From Adonisia turfae CCMR0081 (GTDB taxonomy: Bacteria > Cyanobacteriota > Cyanobacteriia > Phormidesmidales > Phormidesmidaceae): 64,000 bases of DNA. Numbering within the stretch: position 1 is the stretch's first letter; each line of letters begins with the position of its first letter. The notes under the pieces were generated by a model that was not told the DNA's origin, searched no databases, and was given only the letters and a program-made list of their open reading frames with translations. The stretch covers positions 2,428,983-2,492,982 of the forward strand of contig NZ_QXHD01000004.1 in the NCBI RefSeq assembly GCF_011009555.1. The letters are read 5' to 3'. Position numbers and translations under genes: made by a program. Shown here piece by piece: positions 34,459-45,897 of the stretch.

Positions 34459-34662
34459 CTGCCACCCAACACCAAGAAATCGACAAAACGCTCTAGTTTC
34501 AAGCTTAATGATAGCTCAAATTCAGCAGATTATTTTTAGTGTAAGTTTTTGCGTAATCTATAAAAAGGGGATTAGTTTGGGTAGAATTTGAGCCATGGGG
34601 AGAGGCCTACGCTAGATTGGGCGTTTTACCCTGCGGGTTGTTTCAAAGAATGGGAGTTGGCG

Positions 34663-35643
34663 ATGGCTCGTGATATCCCTGAGCCCACCTTTATTGAGTT
34701 TGGCCAGGCAGCTAAGGAACCGGTTCGGGTGGCTGAGGATTTGGGCTGGCAGCGGGTGGTGGAGTTTTTGCGATCGCGTGAGCTATCCGCCAGTACCCTC
34801 AAAGCCTATGAACGGCAGCTCCGGCTCTTCTATACCTGGACCCAGAATAAACCCTGGCACGACATTACCCACCGCGACATTGACCGCTACAAGCAATACC
34901 TGAAGAACCGGCCCAGCAAACGGGGGGGAGCGCTGGCTCCAACCACCATCAATCAGGCCCTGGCCACACTGAAGAGTTTCTTCAAATGGCTCACCGTCAA
35001 GGACTATATCACCCGCAATCCCACCCTCACCATTGAGTTTCTCAAAGAACCGGCTAAGCCCCCTCGGGATTTAGCGGAAACTCAGATTAATCAGCTATTT
35101 GAGGCCCTGGCCTACCGGGGTGATTCTGAAGTGCGCGACCGGGCAATTCTCCAGGTGCTCAGCCATGGATTACGGGCCAGGGAAGTGTGCGGTCTGGATA
35201 TCAGCGACTATGATGGACGGCGGTTGAGGGTGCGTGGGGCTAAGTGGGGCAGTGATGGCCTGGTGCCGTTAAAGCCGGAGGCGGTCGCCGTCTTGGATAG
35301 CTATCTGGGGTGGTTGGTACGCCATGGGTTCGTCGTCAGCCAGGAGACTCCCTTGTTTATTAGTTTGTCTAATAACAGTCGGGGGCAACGCCTGGGCTAT
35401 AGCGGTATCTATGAGTTGGTCAAGGATTTGGCGCAAGCCAGCGAGTTAGAGGACATCCATCCACACCGCATGAGACATACCTTTGCCACGTCGCTCGTCG
35501 CTGCTGGCATGAACCCATTGTTGGCTAAGCGAGCGGTTCGCATTCGCTCTGACAAAATTTTTGCTCGGTACAGTGACCGAGCCTTGGATCTCAAAATGGA
35601 AGAGGCGTTTGAAGAGATTTATGGGGCGTCTGAAGAGTCATGA
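34663..35643 (+). CDS. Tyrosine recombinase (XerC/D-like integrase)
   Basis: A 326-residue recombinase. An N-terminal SAM-like core-binding domain (L-S-A-S-T-L-K-A-Y-E-R-Q-L) precedes the catalytic domain with R171 (H-G-L-R), H268-x-x-R271-H272 and the nucleophile Y303 (A-R-Y-S-D). The usual second His of the L-G-H motif, ~9 residues before the Tyr, is replaced by V-R-I-R. ATG 34663 is chosen because GGAG lies 8 bp before it; the frame is open to 34588. Such enzymes resolve plasmid dimers or integrate mobile DNA. It is followed by a ribbon-helix-helix protein. Confidence 0.85.
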   Translation: MARDIPEPTFIEFGQAAKEPVRVAEDLGWQRVVEFLRSRELSASTLKAYERQLRLFYTWTQNKPWHDITHRDIDRYKQYLKNRPSKRGGALAPTTINQALATLKSFFKWLTVKDYITRNPTLTIEFLKEPAKPPRDLAETQINQLFEALAYRGDSEVRDRAILQVLSHGLRAREVCGLDISDYDGRRLRVRGAKWGSDGLVPLKPEAVAVLDSYLGWLVRHGFVVSQETPLFISLSNNSRGQRLGYSGIYELVKDLAQASELEDIHPHRMRHTFATSLVAAGMNPLLAKRAVRIRSDKIFARYSDRALDLKMEEAFEEIYGASEES

Positions 35644-39234: not shown

Positions 39235-40839
39235 TTACGTCCCTGCTGCAATCATTTGGATCGCTTTGGGCATGGCTGGGTCAAATCCACTAAAGTCCCA
39301 GGAGTCAGGATCCTGGGGATCCACTAGACTCACCTTGTAAGGAGCCAGTGTCACATAGATCGCCTTTGCCTGAGGATTTACCCGACGGCGATAGTCCGCC
39401 AGACGCTGACTAGGATGGGCCTTACCTGCCCAACTTTCACAGTCAGTCCAAAAGCAAAACACATCAACGTGAACCCGATGACGAATAGCCCAGTCGTAGG
39501 CTACAGCCGCATCCGTACCCCCAAAGTTTTGGTTAGACGCTTTCGCCAGGGCTGAACTAAAACTATCGCGAGCCGTAATTTTTAGATCGCAAAACTCCGT
39601 CGAAAAACCACGAATAATATAGTTTTGCTCAGCTTTAGCCGTAGCCAGTGCCAACGTAGTGGCAATCTCACAACAGGTTAAACCACCGGAACTAACCGTG
39701 TAATAGGACATGGAACCAGACACATCCACCGCATGCAGGAATGTCTTACCTGTCGGCTGAACAACATCAAAGGAACGCTCCAGGGCGGTTTCTAAAATGT
39801 CTAACACACGGGGAATAGGCTGCCATGTTTTCTGACTGCGGCCCAGCTTGCCACCAGACTGATAGGTCTTGAGCGCCTTGAGAATATCAATGGGGTGGAT
39901 CCGGGCTTTGCGCAGATTCTTTTTACTCTGCAGTCGTTCTGCTAGATATCTCAAGTTCTTGCTTCTATTGAAGGTCAAGACACCTAAATGGGTGAGCGAC
40001 CCTAAATTACGTAGGAGCGCCCCCATGGGCATATCCTTGAACAAGAGCTGCCAGGCCTCGCGATCCATGTTCCCCACAGGGGCAATCATTTCATGGGTCA
40101 ACCGCCCTTGACGAATGGCTTCCAGGGTTAAGGATGGGTCACGCTTAACTCGCTCGTACCACCAAATTTGAGCCATCGCTTCACTAGGAGGTGCTTCTGG
40201 TAGGCTAGTCCATCCCTGGGTAGCCCACTGGTAAAGGGCCTGATGATCGGGTGTCTCAGGTTTTACGTGGAACAGACGCAACGCATCTCGGTGGGTGTAA
40301 CCATGACGCTGCTGATACTTCAATAACTGATAGGCCAAGGCCCTGGCATCAGGATTAGCCAACCAGGTTTTGCCACAGGCACGGATCAGCTTACCAAAGC
40401 CCCGTAGGCTGCGGGTGTAGTTAAGCCATTCATAGAAATGGCTGCCGGTTCGCACGACCTGCAAAAAGATCTCCTGAAATGCCCCCTTGGCAGCTGGGGT
40501 TTCTCCTATGGACAACAACACTAGGGCAAACAGAGGCGCACTATTATTAATGGCATGGCCATCGCTGGCATAGAGAATCTCTTGTGCCGTGCGGGCCGAA
40601 TCGATAACCACAGCTTGGGTGACGACATTGACAAACTCCTCAGTCAGCTCATGCTTATTGGCATAAAAGCTACCTTGGGCGGTGCCCAATAACAAACAAC
40701 GACGTAGCTGTTGCCACAGGTCAATTTTGAACTGATATCCACCGGAACGACCCTGGATCATATCCGCCTGTCGACCAGGAATTGGCTGAGTTTGAGGTGT
40801 TCGATTTGCTTTAGTAAAAAAGGTGTAGTTTGCTTTCAC
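39235..40839 (-). CDS. rsr: Ro60 orthologue (Rsr), TROVE plus vWA domains
   Basis: A 534-residue Ro60 autoantigen homologue. Residues ~25-345 form the TROVE HEAT-like ring (G-G-Y-Q-F-K-I-D-L-W-Q-Q-L-R-R-C-L-L-L-G-T near the start). Residues ~365-530 are a von Willebrand A domain with a complete metal site: D372-x-S374-x-S376 (VDVSGSM) and T442 in F-G-G-T-D. Ro60 proteins bind Y RNAs and misfolded RNAs; in Deinococcus the Y RNA tethers Rsr to polynucleotide phosphorylase for structured-RNA decay. The GTG start at 40839 has GGAGGG about 9 bp before it. A tRNA-like RNA gene lies 75 bp upstream on the same strand, as expected for a Y RNA partner. Confidence 0.93.
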   Translation of the reverse strand: MKANYTFFTKANRTPQTQPIPGRQADMIQGRSGGYQFKIDLWQQLRRCLLLGTAQGSFYANKHELTEEFVNVVTQAVVIDSARTAQEILYASDGHAINNSAPLFALVLLSIGETPAAKGAFQEIFLQVVRTGSHFYEWLNYTRSLRGFGKLIRACGKTWLANPDARALAYQLLKYQQRHGYTHRDALRLFHVKPETPDHQALYQWATQGWTSLPEAPPSEAMAQIWWYERVKRDPSLTLEAIRQGRLTHEMIAPVGNMDREAWQLLFKDMPMGALLRNLGSLTHLGVLTFNRSKNLRYLAERLQSKKNLRKARIHPIDILKALKTYQSGGKLGRSQKTWQPIPRVLDILETALERSFDVVQPTGKTFLHAVDVSGSMSYYTVSSGGLTCCEIATTLALATAKAEQNYIIRGFSTEFCDLKITARDSFSSALAKASNQNFGGTDAAVAYDWAIRHRVHVDVFCFWTDCESWAGKAHPSQRLADYRRRVNPQAKAIYVTLAPYKVSLVDPQDPDSWDFSGFDPAMPKAIQMIAAGT

Positions 40840-40914
40840 TTATCGGCCCTCCTGGACAATCATCAAAATTAGACAAGGGAGTAGAGCAGGAGTTGCACCC
40901 GCATCTGAATTCAA

Positions 40915-41055
40915 TGTGACAGGGGGGATTCGAACCCCCGACCTCCCGCTTAGAAGGCGATAACCCTAATTCGTCGACCCTTGCGGATAAGGCCCCTTAC
41001 GAATAAGGGGGTTGAAAAAGGAATTTAGGCGCTCTATCCTCTGAGCTACTGTCAC
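40915..41055 (-). ncRNA. yrlA: YrlA-type Y RNA: tRNA mimic with 68-nt insertion
   Basis: Read on the minus strand from 41055, the sequence folds as a tRNA: acceptor GTGACAG/CTGTCAC (7 perfect bp), T8-A9, D-arm GCTC-AGAGGATA-GAGC, a CTTCTAA 7-nt loop before GCGGG, and T-arm GGGGG-TTCGAAT-CCCCC, then discriminator A with no encoded CCA. About 68 nt are inserted in the 5' half of the anticodon stem. The insertion has a basal helix CCTAA/TTAGG extended by TTC/GAA past a bulged A, a perfect CCCCTTA-TTCG-TAAGGGG hairpin and a second small hairpin. Bacterial Y RNAs encoded beside rsr are known to contain tRNA-like domains, and this one lies 75 bp upstream of rsr. A tRNA-Arg(UCU) carrying a very short intron is the alternative. 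Confidence 0.8.
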
Positions 41056-41217
41056 TTGGTGTCCATGGGCTAGGTTGGAACCCGTTTGCCCCTCGACATG
41101 TTTAGAATAGGCAAGCGATTTACCCCTAAGCGAATGCTGGTTCAAGCAGCTCAAAGGCTTAATTAATAGGCGTTTTACAATTGAGGGGTGCTGGTCAGTT
41201 AGGGGGGGACCTCAACT

Positions 41218-44004
41218 TTGCCCAAAATCAGTTATGGTCCGGTGGCCAAACAGCGCACATTAACACTGCTCATGGCCCTGGTGGACTATGGCAATGATGA
41301 ACTGGAGGTGGATGACGTGGCGCTGGAGCGGCTGCGATCGCAACTCAATCTTCACTGGACCACCGATCGACAGCTGATCGTTCGCACCAAAATCCGTAAT
41401 CTTGAAACCCTCACCCATCTATCAGATAGCAATCAGGCCCTAACAAAAGCTCAAATTAAAACCGCCCTTCACCATCTGGAAAACCATCTAGAGCTGTTAG
41501 AGGATAATCGCACCAGCCGTCGGGGGTCAGAGGTGTGGCACTTTACGTTAACGTTGTGGCACCACCGTCGAGATCGCACCGCCCTACTCAACACCTTTGA
41601 TCACACCTGGGAACAGCGTCGCTCTGTTCCCTCAGAAGGCCAAGCTGAAAAACCAGCAGAACACGACATCTGGCAGCAATATTGTCAGCAAGCCCTGGCG
41701 GCTACCGTTCAAACAGGACTGACCTCTAATCTGCTTAAGCCTACTGACACCGGAGTTGACCCAACCAAGCTACACATCCCGCTGGCTTTAGTGGATCACA
41801 CCTTAGAACAATCTACAAAGCAACCATCAGATATTGAAACCATCAACACAGCTGAATTGCTGACTTATCTTCAAAACAGCACGATTCAAACTCTGGCCAT
41901 TGTGGGAGAACCGGGGTCAGGTAAAACCACACTCTTACAACAGCTGGCACAGCAGATTCTACAGCAAACCTCTGATTTAGCCATTTTGATTCCCCTGGCT
42001 CGTTTAGGAACCACACTGATTGAAGACTATGTCTTAAAAGACTGGCTTAAACTTGCCCTAAACCAGCGAGCAGTGACCCCTGAGCAACAAAACGCCCTAG
42101 CTGAACACATTGAACAGGGCCATGGTTGGCTGCTGCTGGATGCTGTAGATGAAATGGACCAACGTGGCAGTTTAGCCATTACTCAACTCGCCAATCAACT
42201 ACAGGGTTGGCTGAGTAATGGGCGTATTATCGTCACTTGTCGCCTCAACCTTTGGGATGCAGGCAAAAATACCTTGGGTCATTGGCCCACTTACCGACTG
42301 CTGGGTTATGAAAAGTATCGGCAGCAAATCCAACACTTTATTCGTCAGTGGTTTTCCCACCAGCCTGAACAAGGAAAAGCCCTGTGTCAAAAACTCTCAC
42401 TTCCAGAAAACAAGCGTCTTCGCCACAATCTCCGTAATCCCCTACGTCTGGCCTTACTTTGCCGGTTAGGAAATAGCGGACACCTTCCCAACACACAACA
42501 CCAGCTCTACCAGCAGTTTGTTACGGCTCTTTATGACTGGCAGCAGGACACCTCACCCACGACGCTGCTAGAACAGCATCAAATCAATACGGTGCTATCA
42601 AAACTCGCCGTTGTCACCCTCAAAGCCTCGACCACCCAGCTGAATCTCCCGCTGGTCACTCAACACCTGCAAGCCGAAGAACTCCCCTGGTTTGAACGGG
42701 CAATGCAACTAGGTTGGCTAATGCCCCTGGCAACGTCCACAGGTGAAAAAGTCTACGGCTTTCTGCATGGTACATTTCGTGATTATTTTGCAGCCCAGGC
42801 TATCGAAGAGTGGCAATATTTTACGACCCCAAAGGACGCTCAATTACCCATGGTGTTACCAAACTGGCAACCCGTGATTCTGCTCTGGTTAGGTCGTAGT
42901 GATATCGAAAACGCTGACAAGACGGCGCTAATTAATGCCTTACTTGACTTCCAAGATAACTGTGGTGGATTCTTTGAGCATCGCACCTGGCTACTTGCCG
43001 GTAGAGCCTTGGGAGAATATTCTGAGTTTCCCAAAGCCCATGGCATCATTCAACAACTGATAACATGGCGTTTTAACTTAACACGCAAGATATCACCCAT
43101 CTTGATCGAAGCGGCTAAAGCGGCCTTAGCTGAGTCTGATCTGAGTCAGGTGACCCAGGTGCTTACCCAGTTCGCGCAAGACCCCAACCAGGATTTCTTT
43201 GATCGATGGATGGCCGCCTACAGCCTAGGGCGCAGCTACGATCCACAGAGTCAGGTCGCCGTCGAAACCCTTGAAGCGTTATTACCTACCGCACGTAGTG
43301 ACTATCTCAAAATGGATATGGCCCGTCATTTGGGCACGCTATCCCCAGGCCATGGTTTAGCCATTGAAACACTAGAAGAGATTATTCATAGGAGTCAACA
43401 ACCTATTGCAAAACGAAAAGCGGCTCTACGATTGGCAAAGGTTGCTCCCCATCATCCCTTACCTGTAGCAACTTTAGAAGACTTACTAGCCCATAATCCT
43501 CAAGATAAACCGACATTAGACGCGCTGGTCAACCTTAACCCCAACCATCCCGTCCCCATAAACAGAGAGTCATCCTCCCAATCTCCTAGACGCTTACAAC
43601 ACCGAAGCGGCAAGAAACAGCAGTACCAGCCTGATATTGCTAAACAAATTGACAGTCTGGTGACTCGGATAGAAAAGGGCGATCGCAATCGCCTCCGACT
43701 AGCCCAAAAGCTGAGCCAGCTGCAAGCTGGACATCCTATTGCCATAAATACACTATGGCAATATCTGATCACTAGCGAGAATAAAACGCAACGTAAACAA
43801 GCTGGCAACGCATTACAACGTGCGGCTACTGATGATCAGTTACCCCAACTCGTCTCAAAACTACGCCTCATATACGAACAAGCCACCATAGCCGAAAACA
43901 AAGATCAACAATTAGCCTTCTTCAAATTACTCTGGACTTGGTCAGATACCTTAGGTTATCTAGACTTTCTTGCAGCTTGGCAGAGCACTGAAACTGAGTT
44001 GTGA
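41218..44004 (+). CDS. NACHT-like STAND NTPase with helical repeats
   Basis: A 928-residue protein. Residues 1-200 form a helical N-terminal domain of unknown type. The NTPase follows: Walker A G-E-P-G-S-G-K-T at 230-237, Walker B L-L-L-D-A-V-D-E at 305-312, and a sensor-like I-V-T-C-R. A winged-helix region and HEAT-like alpha repeats (~600-810) follow, including A-A-Y-S-L-G-R and K-A-A-L-R-L-A-K. The layout resembles bacterial NLR-like proteins, several of which are anti-phage sensors; no defence role is shown here. The TTG start follows a GGGGGG stretch. It is divergent from the Y RNA/rsr pair with a ~160-bp shared promoter region and ends next to the left 36-bp partition-type repeat. Confidence 0.82.
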   Translation: MPKISYGPVAKQRTLTLLMALVDYGNDELEVDDVALERLRSQLNLHWTTDRQLIVRTKIRNLETLTHLSDSNQALTKAQIKTALHHLENHLELLEDNRTSRRGSEVWHFTLTLWHHRRDRTALLNTFDHTWEQRRSVPSEGQAEKPAEHDIWQQYCQQALAATVQTGLTSNLLKPTDTGVDPTKLHIPLALVDHTLEQSTKQPSDIETINTAELLTYLQNSTIQTLAIVGEPGSGKTTLLQQLAQQILQQTSDLAILIPLARLGTTLIEDYVLKDWLKLALNQRAVTPEQQNALAEHIEQGHGWLLLDAVDEMDQRGSLAITQLANQLQGWLSNGRIIVTCRLNLWDAGKNTLGHWPTYRLLGYEKYRQQIQHFIRQWFSHQPEQGKALCQKLSLPENKRLRHNLRNPLRLALLCRLGNSGHLPNTQHQLYQQFVTALYDWQQDTSPTTLLEQHQINTVLSKLAVVTLKASTTQLNLPLVTQHLQAEELPWFERAMQLGWLMPLATSTGEKVYGFLHGTFRDYFAAQAIEEWQYFTTPKDAQLPMVLPNWQPVILLWLGRSDIENADKTALINALLDFQDNCGGFFEHRTWLLAGRALGEYSEFPKAHGIIQQLITWRFNLTRKISPILIEAAKAALAESDLSQVTQVLTQFAQDPNQDFFDRWMAAYSLGRSYDPQSQVAVETLEALLPTARSDYLKMDMARHLGTLSPGHGLAIETLEEIIHRSQQPIAKRKAALRLAKVAPHHPLPVATLEDLLAHNPQDKPTLDALVNLNPNHPVPINRESSSQSPRRLQHRSGKKQQYQPDIAKQIDSLVTRIEKGDRNRLRLAQKLSQLQAGHPIAINTLWQYLITSENKTQRKQAGNALQRAATDDQLPQLVSKLRLIYEQATIAENKDQQLAFFKLLWTWSDTLGYLDFLAAWQSTETEL

Positions 44005-44065: not shown

Positions 44066-44992
44066 CTATGACAAAATACGTTCAATCGCATCCCTCAGGG
44101 CACTTAATCGTTGCAGTTGTAGATCGCTAAGAACTAACGCATCCAACTCTTCAACAGCATGGTTCAGGTTATCTAGCATGCGATCAGCTTTGGTAATTTG
44201 GCTAACTGTCTTCTTGCCATTGTTAGCTTTACGTTGTTTTTCGTGGGTACTGATCGCTTTTCTTAGTTGAGAAAATGACACCTCATGCACTTCAATGATG
44301 TCTTCTTCAAGGGGCAACTTACCCGCAAGCAACCCCGTTAACGCAACAGGTTCGGGCAAGCGGTAAACCTGTTCTAGCTTGGATACGCCCAGTTCCAGAA
44401 CACCAGCAATACTATCGGCATAGGAATCTAAAAAGGACTCAACAATATCTTTATTGACCTGTTTCCCTAAGGATTTAAGATGTTGTTCCAGTTCAGTAGA
44501 TAATGCCTTGCCATCACGAATGGACTCGGCAATTTGCAAGAACTCTTTTAAGCCACGAGTCACCCGCCGATAGGCCCACACCTGGCGTGTGGTAATAGGC
44601 GTGCCATTGGGTCGACGCACTTCACCACCTTTAATAAAAGCAGTGAGATTATCATAATCTTTCTCCTTATAGAGATGCTTCTCTTCAATTACATCTAAGC
44701 GACTACCAATGGCATAGGCATATATGGTGCTTTGGGCCTGGGCTGTTTGGAGAGCCTGATCAATCTGACCTTGATAGGTTTCAATTTCATGCAACAGCGT
44801 ATTCAAGGGCTGAGCATTATTGGCCTGACAAATATCGAGTGCCCGTAACCAATTTTCACGATCGGCCAGGTCCACACGTTCTAAGTTGACAACTTCATCT
44901 GTCGTCTTACGTTTGGGGACAACCGCTAATTTGCGAGGTACGGGGGCTTTCTCAGCAACAGTCGCTACCCTGGAAAAACTTTTTTTAGCCAA
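44066..44992 (-). CDS. ParA-partner protein (putative centromere-binding)
   Basis: A 308-residue, mainly helical protein that overlaps the end of parA by 8 bp (ATG inside the parA tail), so translation is coupled. It has a basic N-terminus (M-A-K-K-S-F-S-R, then K-R-K-T-T-D), a central region with I-T-T-R-Q-V-W-A-Y-R-R-V that could be a DNA-binding helix, and a C-terminal helical region. I cannot see canonical ParB motifs (GERRxRA). By position it should be the DNA-binding partner of ParA and would recognise the flanking 20-bp palindromes; this is inference. Confidence 0.7.
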   Translation of the reverse strand: MAKKSFSRVATVAEKAPVPRKLAVVPKRKTTDEVVNLERVDLADRENWLRALDICQANNAQPLNTLLHEIETYQGQIDQALQTAQAQSTIYAYAIGSRLDVIEEKHLYKEKDYDNLTAFIKGGEVRRPNGTPITTRQVWAYRRVTRGLKEFLQIAESIRDGKALSTELEQHLKSLGKQVNKDIVESFLDSYADSIAGVLELGVSKLEQVYRLPEPVALTGLLAGKLPLEEDIIEVHEVSFSQLRKAISTHEKQRKANNGKKTVSQITKADRMLDNLNHAVEELDALVLSDLQLQRLSALRDAIERILS

Positions 44993-45824
44993 CGGTCTCT
45001 ACCTCCAGAAGATTAGACGAACTACGTAGGGATTCTAAATACTCTGCGATCGCAACAAACGGTTTACGATGTTCTTCTTTCACAGAGCTGTACGAATAAA
45101 GAGACTCCCCTTGAGCCGATAGCTCTGAGTACACAGTTAAATCCCGAATGGGAGGAGAGGTCCAAGACTCTTCTGCTTGATGGGGCAAATGGGTACGCAC
45201 ATCCCAATCGATAATTTGCTGGTGGATGCTCTTATGCAAACTGGTGGACTTCATGCGGTTCGGAACCAATGTGGAAACTCGCAAATCAGGATTCGCCCGA
45301 TCAGCAATCTGACTCACCATTTGCAATAGTTCTGGAATATTCTTCAGAGCAAAGTACTCAGTTTGCACTGGCACTAACACCTCATCACAGGCAACTAAAG
45401 CATTTTTGGTAAATAGACCTTCCCCTTTAGGAGTATCTAGCAGCACGTAATCGTAGTTCTCATAAATACTATTAAACTGAGCCAAGGCATCCCTTAGACG
45501 ACTCTCACTGGATAAGCCTTTTTCGATTTCAGTTTGATATCCACCTAAATCCATCCCTGGAGTAAGCAGGTGACACCACCCCTGCACGTCGATAATGCCC
45601 TGAGCCATCAGATCAGCCTGATCTCGCTTGGGAGCATAGAGGATTTGACCAATATCAGGGGATGAAGCGTCGCGTTCAACGCCCATAGCGGAGGACAGAT
45701 CCCCCTGATGGTCTAAATCAATGCATAAAACTTTTTTGCCCAGATGGGCTAGGGTGGCAGCTAGACAGAACGTAATAGTGGTTTTGCCAACGCCTCCTTT
45801 AATTGCTGCGATCGCGATAATCAT
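44985..45824 (-). CDS. parA: ParA-family partition ATPase
   Basis: A 280-residue ParA/MinD-type ATPase from ATG 45824, where the family's usual opening M-I-I-A-I-A-A-I begins; the frame is open 15 codons further upstream. The deviant Walker A is K-G-G-V-G-K-T-T at residues 9-16, followed by V-L-C-I-D-L-D-H-Q-G-D-L-S (switch I) and Y-V-L-L-D-T-P-K-G (Walker B). It lacks an N-terminal DNA-binding domain, as in small plasmid ParAs. With the overlapping downstream gene it forms a two-gene partition operon, bracketed by identical palindromic repeats. It would move DNA to daughter cells through ATP-driven nucleoid gradients. Confidence 0.93.
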   Translation of the reverse strand: MIIAIAAIKGGVGKTTITFCLAATLAHLGKKVLCIDLDHQGDLSSAMGVERDASSPDIGQILYAPKRDQADLMAQGIIDVQGWCHLLTPGMDLGGYQTEIEKGLSSESRLRDALAQFNSIYENYDYVLLDTPKGEGLFTKNALVACDEVLVPVQTEYFALKNIPELLQMVSQIADRANPDLRVSTLVPNRMKSTSLHKSIHQQIIDWDVRTHLPHQAEESWTSPPIRDLTVYSELSAQGESLYSYSSVKEEHRKPFVAIAEYLESLRSSSNLLEVETVG

Positions 45825-45897
45825 TGTCCCAATCCACAATTGCACAACTGTACACCGGACAGGATACATCAGTATTGCAATTTTGAACCATAAAATT

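Follow-up and report, generated by a model that had tools for sequence, protein, structure and literature searches.

In a 64,000-nucleotide stretch of the genome of Adonisia turfae CCMR0081 (contig NZ_QXHD01000004.1, forward-strand positions 2,428,983 to 2,492,982; hereafter the window), a 141-nt tRNA-like RNA can be read directly from the sequence at 41055-40915 on the minus strand, 76 nt upstream of the Ro60 orthologue gene rsr and in the same orientation. We consider it highly probable that this is a tRNA-mimicking bacterial Y RNA whose parts are circularly permuted relative to YrlA. Its anatomy, conservation, linkage to rsr and permutation are established by sequence comparison: a tRNA body, comprising an open acceptor stem, D-, anticodon and T-arms and an elbow contact, carries a hairpin module between the D-arm and the anticodon arm. 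The solved tRNA-like Y RNA is a permuted tRNA that ends in its Ro stem, and the cyanobacterial family, with the reverse order, retains the tRNA ends. With true tRNA ends, a Ro60 partner could be tested for cleavage by RNase P, for addition of CCA and even for charging.

A tRNA body with a hairpin module upstream of rsr

The rsr gene (39235-40839, minus strand) has a GTG start and encodes a TROVE-vWA protein of 534 aa, matched in Pfam by vWA_Ro60 (E 4.9e-37) and TROVE (E 2.4e-20); its best relative with a solved structure is D. radiodurans Rsr (2nvo, E 1e-73). An initial annotation, made from the letters alone, had named a complete TROVE-vWA gene with a 141-nt tRNA-like sequence upstream on the same strand, and both the open reading frame (40839-39235) and the Pfam matches bear this out. 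The perfect acceptor, D- and T-stems that it listed can likewise be read directly. The 5′ acceptor strand GTGACAG (41049-41055) pairs at all seven positions with CTGTCAC (40916-40922), leaving an A at the discriminator place (40915) with no encoded CCA; the D-arm GCTC-AGAGGATA-GAGC (41031-41046), with G18G19, has 4/4 stem pairs, and the T-arm GGGGG-TTCGAAT-CCCCC (40923-40939) has 5/5. The D-arm is followed by the module of ∼70 nt, the motif GGTTATCG and a 4-bp anticodon arm with the loop CTTCTAA (TCGC-CTTCTAA-GCGG, 40946-40960; anticodon TCT at 40954-40952). Within the module, helix strand 1 (41014-41022), equivalent to the 3′ strand of canonical YrlA, is succeeded by an extra hairpin CCCCTTA-TTCG-TAAGGGG (40993-41010), a closing hairpin ATCC-GCAA-GGGT (40977-40988) at the place where canonical YrlA has both its ends, and strand 2, GAATTAGGG (40964-40972), equivalent to the canonical 5′ strand. 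The conserved motif GGTTATCG (40958-40965) has a phage YrlA equivalent, GGTTA[CTA], at the same place. All of these parts lie on the minus strand. The 68-nt insertion of the initial annotation thus corresponds to the putative Ro-binding module, but it is placed between the D-arm and a separate anticodon arm and not in the anticodon stem.

Other structural details of that annotation hold for the window copy and its nearest kin only. The TTCG hairpin is common to the window (41010-40993) and the near-identical locus of Leptolyngbya sp. PCC 7375, a close relative whose rsr is 96% identical, but none of the other 43 rows of alignment A1, described below, has it. The proposed CCTAA/TTAGG helix is the minimum free energy fold of the window sequence (-51.8 kcal/mol, against -46.2 kcal/mol when the consensus pairing is imposed) and appears as an alternative fold of its group, but relatives conserve a different pairing, TCCTTnTTC with GAATnAGGG, which two U-U mismatches interrupt in the window copy. 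The predicted energy of the window RNA, -52 kcal/mol (z -2.31; equalled by 3/200 shuffles), is modest evidence on its own.

The RNA belongs to a family that, by sequence, is real and well conserved. We assembled 82 rsr loci, the best 80 of 110 from a scan of genome contigs plus two Picosynechococcus plasmid loci, and searched up to 3 kb upstream of rsr with a script that required a motif like GGTTATCG together with acceptor stem, D-arm and T-arm. It returned 196 elements in 80/82 loci, with 1-5 per locus, among them three in Picosynechococcus sp. PCC 7002, whose rsr is on plasmid pAQ7; copies with a TGC-type T-loop are found in L031, L033, L034, L036, L089 and L106, and a decayed copy in L076. 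The window element and 43 of the 132 type-I elements, with near-duplicates dropped, form the 44 rows of alignment A1 and of the covariance model R1. At E ≤ 0.01, R1 gave 303 matches in the rsr loci, and among the matches listed 81/82 loci are covered (all but L076), the best match in each of these scoring at least 63.5 bits; the matches include at least one ordinary tRNA as well as copies downstream of rsr. The window RNA itself scores 98.5 bits (E 1.4e-19), partly by construction, since it is one of the 44 seed rows. It is the sole full copy found in its genome (8.66 Mb), where the 37 other R1 matches, from 150 of 1264 candidates scored, are all tRNA-sized (76-94 nt) and reach at most 52.7 bits.

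Possession of the element also tracks possession of the protein. TROVE occurs in 30 of 244 genomes of the phylum, that of the window included. Outside the latter, a full-length element (>100 nt) lies on the rsr contig in 22/29 TROVE-bearing genomes, within 1.5 kb of the TROVE match in 21 of them and at ∼3 kb in G097. None was found in 29 TROVE-free genomes, hand-picked from 214, whose R1 matches all have the size of a tRNA (77-79 nt). Both searches took matches at E ≤ 1e-7 with 120 candidates scored per genome, so some elements may have been missed. A strict pattern run earlier over the 244 genomes matched only five, all with TROVE; it was too narrow and was superseded by R1. In a DNA search for mobile copies, 20 phage records held only short tRNA-Arg-like stretches, and the further records recovered were rsr plasmids of Picosynechococcus (four records) and one Enterococcus record; two exact patterns had no match in viral contigs.

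Covariation supports the tRNA-like fold. In A1, 95.4% of cells are paired and 22/33 pairs change on both sides, values that 0/500 shuffles reach, and slid-alignment controls give 41.7-49.3% paired. Changes on both sides affect 8/8 acceptor pairs (seven base pairs plus position -1), 4/5 T-stem and 3/4 D-stem pairs. RNAalifold, unaided, finds nearly the same structure, with 31 pairs of which 22 have compensatory changes. The initial annotation had proposed looking for covariation in the insertion among cyanobacteria; there, the closing hairpin is a covarying stem and 3/9 pairs of the Ro helix change on both sides. Compensation is visible even within the genus, where the window's GTGACAG/CTGTCAC corresponds to GTGATAG/CTATCAC in L013. 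This change and many across the phylum speak against a functionless decayed tRNA or integration-site remnant, which we regard as the least credible of the alternatives, with next to no chance of being right, although the window does contain a tyrosine recombinase gene (34588-35643, plus strand) and a ParA-like ATPase gene (44985-45869, minus strand), both possible mobile-element genes, and the orphan 3′ half of a second copy adjoins the RNA. This half, recognised by eye at 40879-40905 (minus strand), retains a T-arm with the loop TGCAACT and an acceptor strand TCTACTC. It is also present in L029, the PCC 7375 locus, and in L030, and L012, of the same genus, seems to have a full copy. In G014 (L014, C1 1036693-1036889) the two matching Y RNA parts stand 195 nt apart, against 20 nt in the window, so extra sequence is apparently tolerated in that region.

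The elbow of the tRNA body is constrained as a pair. Among the 196 elements, G18-U55 is present in 171 copies and A18-G55 in 19, mixed combinations in none, and six copies are left over, three for each T-loop type; the types were defined after the sequences had been viewed. A18-G55 pairs occur in mitochondrial tRNAs as well. Since several loci hold both kinds, repeated switching is probable. In YrlA, D and pseudouridine are introduced by DusA and TruB. The window copy has U55; G55 is found in 22/196 copies, in which pseudouridine 55 is therefore impossible. Many anticodon loops look genuine: in 99 loops of seven bases, U33 is kept in 98 and a purine at position 37 in 94, while the loops span 23 different anticodons, one of them for a stop codon. 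This count leaves out 97 of the 196 elements (28 of type I without a clear stem, nine with 6-nt loops and 60 of other types).

Module order relative to YrlA

PMC8394870 describes canonical YrlA as a tRNA-like domain plus a large stem in which the 5′ and 3′ ends come together, and PMC11472068 reports a YrlA crystal structure that superposes on tRNA via circular permutation. Of five rsr loci from phages or plasmids, our script recovered the corresponding order in four (L111-L114, not L115): T-arm, acceptor hairpin and D-arm with the Ro strands outside. Judged by sequence, the cyanobacterial module order is a rotation of this one. Both orders occur within the same phylum: the canonical one is called by script in L168 (G091) and by eye in L172 (G177), and in G097 a permuted element (76.2 bits) stands in a real tRNA array near rsr with canonical ones, recognised by eye, close by. 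Two further script calls were discarded, that in L167 as spurious and that in L174 as spanning two permuted copies. The predicted ends of the window RNA lie in the acceptor stem, and a short loop caps its Ro stem, so a stem made of the RNA's own ends, the strict mark of YrlA, is absent. Hence the YrlA-type label of the initial annotation was apt for a Y-type RNA linked to rsr by synteny and covariation, but the RNA appears to be a circular permutation of YrlA rather than YrlA with an insertion. The accompanying suggestion, that the Ro part sits at the anticodon side of an RNA with tRNA-like ends, is supported by covariation and by the same modules, permuted, in canonical loci.

Homology of the Ro module is indicated by the helix ending at GGTTA, which spans 8-9 bp in 4/5 canonical copies tested and 6 bp in the fifth; shuffled partners reach the same lengths in 102, 8, 2, 26 and 393 of 2000 trials for the five copies. 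R1, which describes the permuted order only, also aligns across the junction of two tandem phage copies in L114 (model positions 1-128, 141 nt, 48.5 bits), matching D-arm, Ro module, anticodon arm and T-arm. Beside a phage rsr, at L112:2363-2430, a third Y RNA-like unit has Ro strands and GGTTA with neither D- nor T-arm and is therefore apparently a Y RNA lacking a tRNA body.

Wherever either form is repeated in tandem, the other can be read across the junctions, which suggests a possible route of topology change. The same property could mean that in tandem arrays the mature RNA is canonical YrlA laid across neighbouring copies, the permuted order being merely a way of reading the array. We find this very improbable: the single full copy in the window permits the permuted reading only, acceptor pairing and covariation lie within each unit, L032 alternates two acceptor stems that each pair within their own unit, and the Ro hairpin has a short closing loop. 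The RNA has several of the marks of Y RNAs in the broad sense. It stands beside a Ro60/Rsr gene, in the window as across loci and genomes; its tRNA-like module is seen in covariation and in the swap of the elbow pair; and its Ro-binding helix module is recognised by homology only, through the GGTTA helix common with canonical loci.

tRNA identity, maturation and the rsr leader

ARAGORN with default settings and Rfam at gathering cut-offs gave no match in the window, so neither tRNA finder nor Rfam tRNA model recognises the RNA, whose anticodon stem has 4 bp instead of 5 and is parted from the D-arm by the Ro module. The initial annotation had also pointed to RNA family models, with which no Y RNA family was found in the window, either at gathering cut-offs or among ten weak matches around the RNA; one weak match, to tmRNA_permuted, falls on the T-arm. 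In eight cyanobacterial and five canonical loci Rfam likewise found no Y RNA family, the only families above cut-off being tRNA and tRNA-Sec, and 13 places in eight related loci exceed the tRNA cut-off. A tRNA-sized element in a Y RNA array, at L062:744-817, is without a Ro module and scores 51.2 bits with the Rfam tRNA model; ARAGORN is negative and its T-loop looks decayed.

The warning that automated tools may call a tRNA-Arg with an intron was right in kind: in intron mode ARAGORN reports tRNA-Arg(acg) with a 48-nt intron. Despite the different anticodon, this call might favour a genuine tRNA-Arg(UCU) gene with a spliced intron, as might the 14-nt anticodon-arm core CGCCTTCTAAGCGG, which is identical in the window RNA and one genuine tRNA-Arg(TCT) of the same genome. 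We rejected this explanation as very improbable. Among the 58 tRNAs that ARAGORN finds in 40 stretches of the genome, part of its 68 Rfam tRNA places, are two tRNA-Arg(TCT) genes, both intact; the insert, instead of sitting in the anticodon loop, separates the D-arm from the anticodon arm; its homologues occur in 80/82 rsr loci by script, in bodies with 23 anticodons; and Rfam detects no intron family in the window at gathering cut-offs or among the ten weak matches around the RNA.

Encoded CCA divides the copies by position. The copy nearest to rsr (within 130 nt) encodes it in 0/66 loci, all other copies in 91/130, where CCA was accepted after a 7-bp or 8-bp acceptor; among genuine tRNAs of the window's genome, scored after a 7-bp stem only, it is encoded in 11/58 (3/43 outside the tRNA cluster). 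Next to the start of rsr itself lies a second hairpin, GTCC-AGGA-GGGC (40841-40857, minus strand), followed by CGATAA and the start codon. It resembles the Ro-module hairpin and contains a putative Shine-Dalgarno sequence, AGGAGG. A hairpin in this region is present in 67/82 loci, and in the window, against 81/4100 shuffled leaders and 18/1886 coding windows, in a test framed after the leaders had been viewed. In most loci it has the form TTG-GCCY-loop-RGGC-YGG, similar to the Ro-module hairpin CTTGCCYGnAARGGCCGA. Since the loci are related, neither the CCA nor the leader-hairpin counts represent independent events.

These observations bear on a rival reading in which the RNA, instead of being a free Y RNA, works mainly in cis, as a tRNA-like leader through which the rsr mRNA is regulated. 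The single full copy of the window directly upstream of rsr, the lack of CCA in all 66 nearest copies when 91 of 130 others encode it, and the overlap of a Ro-like hairpin with the rsr start region would all suit such a leader. We nevertheless judge it unlikely, though it is the strongest of the alternatives, because additional copies stand far upstream of rsr in many loci, other copies lie downstream of it, and full tRNA tertiary constraints exceed what a leader needs.

Other findings weigh against the identification of a permuted, tRNA-mimic Y RNA, or against parts of it. Of five covariation measures, that for further pair types does no better than shuffles (104/500 reach it). The Ro helix varies less than most tRNA stems, four of its nine pairs changing on one side only and two being invariant, and the anticodon stem changes on both sides in just 1/4 pairs, scored in 20 sequences. 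The consensus Ro helix is not the minimum free energy fold of the window copy, nor is the full consensus that of the other five rows tried. Seven of the 29 TROVE genomes are without a permuted element (G085, G177, G074, G077, G087, G091 and G094); among these, G085 has only a TROVE fragment, and the canonical order is present in G091 (by script) and G177 (by eye). In the L114 junction match the acceptor stem is incomplete, and the L112 match (38.6 bits) is without the T-arm; ordinary tRNAs score in the same range in that search, reaching 55.7 bits, and the argument for permutation therefore rests on length and module order, not on score. Finally, tRNA-like maturation is least certain for the window copy, because its leader class never encodes CCA.

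With these points in view, a permuted Y RNA could act as follows. It would be transcribed together with rsr or ahead of it, RNase P would cleave at the 5′ end of the acceptor stem, the 3′ end would be trimmed, and the window copy would receive CCA. Rsr would bind the built-in hairpin, and the tRNA body might either gate the Rsr ring or tether Rsr to a partner that recognises tRNA, for which PNPase, on the precedent of D. radiodurans, or RNA-repair factors are candidates; for PNPase we infer such tethering here solely from that organism. Through the hairpin of the same shape at the start codon, spare Rsr may repress its own translation until it is titrated by Y RNA or damaged RNA.

Genomic neighbourhood and comparison with known systems

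Divergent from the Y RNA and rsr, a domain search identifies an EAD4-NACHT-HEAT STAND NTPase gene (41218-44004, plus strand). An EAD4-NACHT neighbour lies divergently upstream of rsr in 8/91 loci (L029-L035 and L106). Between this gene and the Y RNA is a promoter-like block, GGGGnAA-N-CCTATTCT (41104-41126, minus strand), present in 6/78 loci (L029, L030, L031, L033, L034 and L106), all six with the NACHT neighbour. The RNA ligase RtcB is encoded beside rsr in 5/91 loci, partially in L033 and L089 (examples near rsr are L106:3245-4504, L032:6846-8027 and L169:4339-5463), and in raw counts, with genome size and kinship uncontrolled, it is found in 24/24 TROVE-bearing and 11/24 TROVE-free genomes examined. 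The gene rsr itself stands inside or beside tRNA arrays in G074, G097 and G177 (L166, L170, L172, L176 and L178), with 23 tRNA genes called in L176; the G097 and G177 arrays have Y RNA-like units between tRNA genes.

With erythromycin, TROVE transcripts rise sharply in Chlorogloeopsis (PMC6424891), TROVE and RtcB transcripts rise together in a cyanobacterial coculture (PMC11423583), and a Salmonella study proposes YrlA as a possible inhibitor of an anticodon nuclease (PMC7790460). The RtcB linkage and the expression context of TROVE are compatible with stress-linked RNA repair. More speculatively, and with the odds well against the scheme as a whole, cyanobacteria may have diversified un-permuted tRNA mimics, with their own anticodon loops and often CCA, that Rsr holds through the Ro hairpin. 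Such a set could act as decoy or sensor when nucleases damage tRNA or translation is under stress, in concert with repair by RtcB and, in one group, with a defence switch of the EAD4-NACHT type. Tandem duplication within tRNA arrays would let the two topologies interconvert. Concrete functional predictions follow from the diversity of anticodon loops and from the split in CCA between leader and other copies, and the two module orders provide a natural permutation pair for asking how Y RNAs originated, with tandem-array junctions as a plausible route.

Chen et al. (2014) reportedly found Y RNAs encoded close to Ro60 in more than 250 species of bacteria and phages. Among the literature records listed, which did not extend to that study, none names permuted cyanobacterial Y RNAs, so priority is uncertain. 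The closest relative is YrlA of Salmonella, mycobacteria and phages, which shares with the window RNA the location near rsr, the mimicry of D-, T- and acceptor arms and the helix ending at GGTTA, and with the family the occurrence in multiple copies, as in phage loci L112 and L114. In contrast to the open Ro stem and looped acceptor of YrlA, the window RNA has an open acceptor and a tetraloop-closed Ro stem. For the partner protein, the nearest parallel is the Y RNA-Rsr-PNPase complex of D. radiodurans (RYPER), whose Rsr is of the same family (2nvo). Permuted tRNA and permuted tmRNA genes exist in nature and are likewise natural circular permutations of tRNA-like RNAs; here, however, it is the variant that has the usual tRNA ends, and the known relative, YrlA, that is the permuted tRNA. 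With tRNA-Arg(UCU) the window RNA has in common the D-arm, the T-arm, the 7-bp acceptor and the loop CTTCTAA, and it differs by the Ro module of ∼70 nt before the anticodon arm and by a 4-bp anticodon stem. Cyanobacterial tRNA genes can also carry group I introns, which resemble the present case in that a structured insert interrupts a tRNA gene; the insert described here lies elsewhere, is much shorter, matches no intron family and is homologous to parts of Y RNA.

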